A stretch of 64,000 bases of DNA, taken from the NCBI GenBank assembly GCA_903870245.1, contig CAIQCB010000057.1, positions 186,001-250,000 on the forward strand, given 5' to 3'. How positions within the stretch are numbered: position 1 is the first letter of the stretch; every line of letters starts with the position of its first letter. The position numbers were made by a program, and so were the translations under genes. Shown piece by piece: positions 11,575-12,786 of this stretch. The stretch is from an uncultured Methylocystaceae bacterium (GTDB lineage: Bacteria; Pseudomonadota; Alphaproteobacteria; Rhizobiales; Beijerinckiaceae). The notes beneath the pieces are model-generated. The model worked only from the letters and a program-made list of their open reading frames with translations, was not told the origin of the DNA and made no database searches.

Positions 11575-12786
11575 ATGCAGAAGATCAAGGTGACCAATCC
11601 GGTCGTCGAACTCGACGGCGACGAAATGACGCGAATCATCTGGTCTTTCATCAAGGACAAGTTGATCCGGCCCTATCTCGACGTTGAGCTTCTGTATTAT
11701 GACCTCTCCGTGCAGAATCGTGACGCCACCGGCGATCAGGTGACGATTGACGCGGCAAACGCGATCAAAAAACACGGGGTCGGGGTCAAATGCGCAACCA
11801 TCACGCCTGACGAGGCGCGCGTTGCCGAGTTTGGCCTCAGGGAAATGTGGAAATCTCCTAATGGCACGATCCGCAACATTCTTGGGGGCGTAATCTTCCG
11901 CGAGCCCATCATCTGCAAAAACGTGCCCAGACTTGTGCCCGGCTGGACACAGCCCATCGTCGTCGGTCGTCACGCCTATGGCGATCAATATCGCGCTACG
12001 GATTTCAGGACGCCGGGAAAGGGGCGTTTGACGATCAAATTCGAAGGCGAGGATGGAGCCGTCATTGAGAAGGAGGTCTTCGTTTTCCCCGGCGCCGGCG
12101 TCGCCATGGCTATGTATAATCTTGATGAGTCGATCCGTGAATTTGCACGCGCTACTTTCAATTATGGCGTCAATCGCAGATTCCCGGTCTACCTTTCTAC
12201 GAAAAACACCATTCTCAAAGCCTAAGACGGCCGGTTCAAGGATTTATTCCAGGAGATCTTCGACGCCGAATTCAAGTCGCAATATGCCGCGCTCGGTTTG
12301 CACTACGAGCATCGCCTGATCGACGACATGGTCGCCTCGGCCCTTAAATGGTCGGGCGGATATATTTGGGCCTGTAAAAACTACGATGGCGACGTGCAAT
12401 CCGACATCGTGGCGCAGGGGTTTGGCTCGCTGGGGCTGATGACCAGCGTGCTCATGACGCCCGACGGCAAGACCGTCGAAGCAGAAGCTGCGCACGGCAC
12501 GGTGACCCGGCATTATCGCGAGCACCAGAAGGGCCATGAAACCTCGACAAACTCCATCGCCTCGATCTTCGCCTGGACGCGCGGTTTGGCGCACCGCGCC
12601 AAGCTCGACGACAACGCCGAACTGGCGCGATTTTCGAAAACGCTGGAAGAGGTGTGCGTCGCCACCGTCGAGTCCGGCTTCATGACCAAAGACCTGGCGC
12701 TACTGGTCGGTCACAATCAGCGCTGGCTGTCGACCACGGGCTTCCTCGACAAGATCGACGAAAATCTTCGCAGAGCCATGGGTTGA
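11575..12786 (+). pseudogene. icd: NADP-isocitrate dehydrogenase interrupted by an in-frame TAA
   Basis: The frame from ATG 11575 to TGA 12786 is 404 codons and reads as one eukaryotic-type NADP-IDH, but codon 217 is TAA (12223-12225). The family has [16 protein letters not shown] at this point. Here the sequence is [19 protein letters not shown], so a tyrosine codon (TAT or TAC) has become TAA by one substitution. No other frameshift or stop is visible. The second part keeps [23 protein letters not shown] (metal-binding Asp residues) and [14 protein letters not shown]. The first 216 residues alone would lack the metal-binding aspartates and much of the cofactor site, so neither fragment should be active. 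Either this is a recent null allele or a base-calling error. The start has GGAAACA upstream. Confidence 0.9.

Follow-up and report, generated by a model that had tools for sequence, protein, structure and literature searches.

Mutants without isocitrate dehydrogenase (IDH) have been described in other bacteria, and glutamate auxotrophy is given for all IDH mutants covered in the available part of a review (PMC4518329). In Rhizobium leguminosarum the growth of icd mutants was impaired in minimal medium as well as in rich medium, as stated in excerpts of the respective study (PMC5118466). For Methylosinus trichosporium OB3b, a type II methanotroph, excerpts of PMC3615186 report that the genes for all key enzymes of the TCA cycle were predicted, that isocitrate lyase is lacking, and that ammonia assimilation via GS/GOGAT was concluded. 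A literature search at the level of titles turned up no report of icd loss in Methylocystis.

The window, i.e., the whole stretch of 64,000 nucleotides that was analyzed, contains an icd gene for an NADP-dependent IDH on the forward strand (11575..12786), the frame of which is interrupted in the assembly by one in-frame TAA. The frame starts with the ATG at 11575, has the TAA at codon 217 (12223..12225, forward strand), where the relatives have tyrosine, and is then open up to the TGA at 12784-12786. The 216 codons 5' of the stop (11575..12222, forward strand) matched positions 1-216 of the family profile NF006156 (length 403) with 403.1 bits and an E value of 9.8e-121, and the 186 codons 3' of the stop (12226..12783, forward strand) matched positions 218-402 with 339.9 bits and an E value of 1.5e-101; the curated cut-off is 335 bits. 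Thus, the stop takes the place of a single residue, without a frameshift, and neither the frame nor the profile revealed a second stop or frameshift. The closest solved structure by sequence, PDB 3us8, aligns to residues 1-402 of the icd read-through. As the read-through frame matches its family from end to end, it is not a chance frame.

The initial annotation had described an otherwise intact NADP-IDH gene that is split by the TAA, and this was confirmed by the frame, by the matches of both parts to NF006156, and by the tyrosine in the relatives. The proposed conservation of the 404-codon frame over its full length was also borne out by the profile, the count of 404 including the final stop, and the view that a single base change explains the break without other decay is supported by the presence of only one lesion, the lack of a frameshift, and the low dN/dS value described below.

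The neighbours of icd are ordinary. Upstream lies a divergently oriented gene for a SpoU-family RNA methyltransferase (10578..11429, reverse strand; Pfam PF00588), and the next gene downstream encodes a DksA-type regulator (12803..13309, forward strand; Pfam PF21157 and PF01258); both are conserved with the related genome G009 and are free of stops. Further downstream, the G+C content of positions 60001-62000 of the window drops to 0.454, whereas the flanking 2-kb segments have values of 0.582 (preceding) and 0.548 (following). A tRNA-Met gene (59468-59544) lies shortly before this dip, and the segment is possibly acquired DNA.

The assembly, which is probably derived from a metagenome, comprises 3,205,360 bases on 66 contigs and is 99.95% complete and 0.07% contaminated; icd is located on contig C57. 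Judged by its named relatives, the host is assigned to the genus Methylocystis, and going by the genus name it should be a methanotroph. Its closest relative with a name is the MAG Methylocystis sp. JZJ.7, with icd identities of 94% at the protein level and 85.5% at the DNA level. Because the nearest icd is only 85.5% identical at the DNA level, the compared genomes do not include a near-identical sister by which the base could be settled.

A comparison with close relatives had been suggested in the initial annotation. Tyrosine was present at the site of codon 217 in 29 of the 29 other same-genus loci aligned (L002-L030), and also in 77 of the 77 loci with a detectable motif in a wider set of 80 contig loci kept of 593 relatives (the motif was not found in L043, L093 and L097). 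The two sets overlap; for instance, L033 and L002 lie on one and the same contig. At the level of genomes, 56 of 61 matched icd (own genome included), and none of the 55 others had a stop inside the icd match; in G053 a weak second match (25% identity), by its score a different gene, contains a TGA. A sample of the order yielded icd matches at E 1e-100 or better in 370 of 397 genomes, and among the matches listed from this sample a stop was seen only in the genome studied here. Plasmid records contained 41 further icd copies, which are more distant, all with 60-80% identity, and were left out of the comparisons. One record of the wider set, L060 (JAHREI010000002.1, titled Bacillus subtilis strain SK6B4), has an icd with 84% identity to the present alphaproteobacterial gene on a contig of 878 kb; it is probably mislabelled or contaminated.

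The constraint on the gene was quantified with pairwise Nei-Gojobori estimates. In comparison with L002, the copy of the nearest relative (G012), the dN/dS of icd was 0.038 over all codons, 0.036 before the stop and 0.031 after the stop, while nine other pairs among five genomes gave values of 0.045-0.100 over all codons. The corresponding dS was 0.87 overall, with 1.30 for the part 5' of the stop and 0.57 for the part 3' of it, i.e., near saturation, which may lower the dN/dS for this pair. Of 282 alignment columns that are invariant in 29 others, only one is changed in icd (K89R), and in five relatives, each compared with its own 29 others, the numbers of such changes were 2, 0, 0, 0, and 2. 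The mean dN to ten outgroups was 0.0778 for icd, 0.0733 for L002, 0.0499 for L003, 0.0540 for L004, and 0.0527 for L008; the excess is common to icd and the uninterrupted L002 copy and, thus, does not point to a loss. An old pseudogene was rejected, based on the dN/dS of 0.038, the single change in an invariant column, and the lack of any further lesion. Even if only a few percent of the branch had been unconstrained, several more amino acid changes should have been left behind. A very young null is a different case, because dN/dS is blind to it. As the constraint is undamaged, the stop, if it is real, is very young.

A true null had been expected to imply a paralogue, an NAD-IDH or another source of 2-oxoglutarate. 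A protein search of the assembly did not reveal a second icd copy, and a match to PF03971, the monomeric IDH, was also not found in the assembly, while the control in Corynebacterium glutamicum was positive. PF00180 (Iso_dh) matched only icd and one other gene in the assembly, and the latter is leuB (TIGR00169, 458.6 bits versus a cut-off of 353.2). Based on these searches of the assembly, a paralogue or an alternative enzyme was rejected, and the negative outcome of the genome search moved the balance towards an error in the sequence. PF00463, representing isocitrate lyase and, thus, the glyoxylate bypass, had no match in the assembly, while 8 of 14 controls were positive. Judged from their domains, two enzymes consuming 2-oxoglutarate seem to be present, namely glutamate synthase (gltB domains in an open frame of 1585 amino acids) and 2-oxoglutarate dehydrogenase (sucA domains in an open frame of 998 amino acids).

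Twelve genomes of the order were searched for PF03971, and it was present in seven of them (G065, G106, G164, G173, G197, G236 and G252). All seven tested genomes of the families f30 and f43 that have no icd match (E 1e-100) contain the monomeric enzyme. PF03971 was absent in the remaining five, i.e., G009 (intact icd), G028, G050, G039 and G088 (no matched icd). G028 and G050 are drafts with about 490 and 430 contigs, respectively. In G039 and G088, with sizes of 1.4 and 1.3 Mb and a completeness of 97%, a matched icd and a monomeric IDH are both lacking, and some members of the order may, thus, live without both enzymes. G039, G088, G121, G151, G177 and others of family f4 are small genomes (1.3-1.6 Mb) that did not match icd at E 1e-100.

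Several features bear on the quality of the draft. Genes for tRNA-Leu(TAA), Ile-GAT and Ala-TGC were absent from the 43 tRNA genes found, despite the completeness score of 99.95%, and a 16S rRNA was not found in the assembly, by a search that also missed it in five of the 14 genomes used as controls. Such gaps would fit a short-read or metagenomic draft. The local error rate was assessed over 224 kb (C57:106001-330000), using as reference mechanical ORFs of at least 100 amino acids from 200 kb of G009, which are not annotated genes. After rows below 50% identity had been dropped, 69 frames with 22,665 residues were compared, and by reading of the alignments icd was the sole clear interruption. 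An alignment stop was present in seven of the 69 frames, icd included. In row 107641_108231 the stop precedes the ATG of the gene in the window, in 152329_152832 it is at the second-last alignment position, and 51556_52281, 55015_56367, 59372_60232 and 149380_150102 were judged by eye to be spurious, antisense-like reference ORFs. Three doubtful rows had no stop: 50417_51685 is truncated at the sample boundary, 190870_192156 shows 99% identity over only 66% of its length, and in 86276_87388, which was judged to be an ORF overrun, one segment runs in a different frame and overlaps the gene next to it. In a comparison restricted to the window, two rows with 28% and 42% identity had 8 and 3 stops, respectively, and were taken as spurious. 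A generally bad assembly was, thus, not seen over these 224 kb.

If one wrong base per 100,000 is assumed for the consensus, a genome of 3.2 Mb would be expected to contain roughly one false nonsense codon. The icd gene was matched in 34 of 37 same-genus genomes (own included); it was uninterrupted in all 12 genomes with at most 10 contigs (rounded), and it was broken in two of the other 22, which are drafts, namely in the present genome and in G010. The latter is a draft of about 270 contigs, and its icd (L175; G010:C138:25500-26950) changes its reading frame once, near codon 49, the rest being open; possibly this frameshift is an assembly error, too. The distribution of 2 of 22 drafts versus 0 of 12 near-closed genomes leans towards draft error, the numbers being too small for significance.

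Taken together, we consider it probable that the TAA is a single-base consensus error in the draft assembly, or the variant of a minority strain that won the consensus, so that the wrong base would sit in the assembly rather than in the living population, and the organism would very probably carry a working icd. This is the likeliest explanation because the searches did not reveal a second copy of a gene that the cell should require, and because the constraint is undamaged. The initial annotation had argued for a very recent event or a sequencing or assembly error, and the single lesion, the intact constraint and the lack of a detected substitute agree with that choice. One point against an error is that the 224-kb comparison does not show a visibly error-ridden assembly. 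Next in rank, albeit rather unlikely, is a real and very recent nonsense mutation, so that the sequenced clone or population would have no NADP-IDH. The 216-residue fragment would then be dead, and the cell would require glutamate or 2-oxoglutarate and would be fed by its neighbours or the medium. The stop does stand in the assembled sequence, such a codon is easily gained (127 of the 3618 single substitutions in the icd frame create a stop), a substitute IDH was not found in the assembly, the genomes G039 and G088 indicate that life without both enzymes may occur in the order, and IDH mutants of other bacteria are viable when glutamate is given, according to the available part of PMC4518329. 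However, relaxed constraint was not seen in icd, the gene is central and a bypass was not found, and the present genome lacks the monomeric IDH that accompanies the lack of an icd match in all seven genomes of f30 and f43. In addition, methanotrophs are not generally known to live on imported glutamate.

The remaining two explanations assume that IDH is made in spite of a real stop. If a suppressor tRNA or readthrough placed an amino acid at the TAA, a full-length IDH would result, and the host would be a methanotroph that decodes UAA in a central enzyme via a tRNA or a context missing from the assembly. Readthrough would explain that dN/dS is as low after the stop as before it, and the gaps in the tRNA census could hide another tRNA. 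Nevertheless, we regard this as very improbable: the TTA (ochre) anticodon occurs in none of the 43 tRNAs of this incomplete census, which, thus, yielded no candidate suppressor, the sole tRNA-Tyr has the anticodon GTA, TAA is a normal stop here that ends 3 of the 26 window genes checked, and the stop is not conserved in any of the 55 matched relatives. A laxer tRNA search gave three extra matches below the threshold. TTA codons are in use (25 of 9875 in the 26 window genes), though tRNA-Leu(TAA) was not found. Even harder to believe is a two-piece IDH, in which the 216-residue fragment would associate with a C-terminal fragment made by re-initiation to give an active enzyme. The frame of the C-terminal part is open, it is conserved, and it contains an in-frame TTG at 12298, but this is the first in-frame start 3' of the stop and lies 25 codons on, the 24 codons after the break being devoid of ATG, GTG and TTG. 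Initiation at this TTG would lose 24 residues of the family match, and a Shine-Dalgarno motif was not seen in the 20 bases before it. Re-initiation was rejected because a good start codon is lacking. Moreover, none of the other 55 matched relatives is split at codon 217, the split in G010 being near codon 49, and the break presumably lies inside a domain of the IDH fold.

With an error or a minority variant in the consensus as the preferred explanation, caution is called for when metabolism is reconstructed from this assembly: the TCA cycle would be described as broken and the organism as a glutamate auxotroph, which is probably wrong. If the stop were real and fixed, the organism would be a methanotroph without any detectable IDH, or one that decodes UAA.

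In comparison with known systems, the locus differs from the replacement by the monomeric IDH (PF03971), which is a known route to lacking icd, in that PF03971 has no match in the present genome, in which icd is retained under constraint. It resembles the icd of G010 in being open apart from one lesion and in belonging to a draft assembly, but the lesion in G010 is a frameshift near codon 49 and not a nonsense codon. With its one TAA at codon 217 the gene also differs from the icd of the 55 relatives with a match, in none of which this stop occurs; in the alignment to NF006156 (PRK08299) its two parts follow each other in the order of the family, with the stop codon as the sole gap, and 3us8 aligns to the read-through over residues 1-402.
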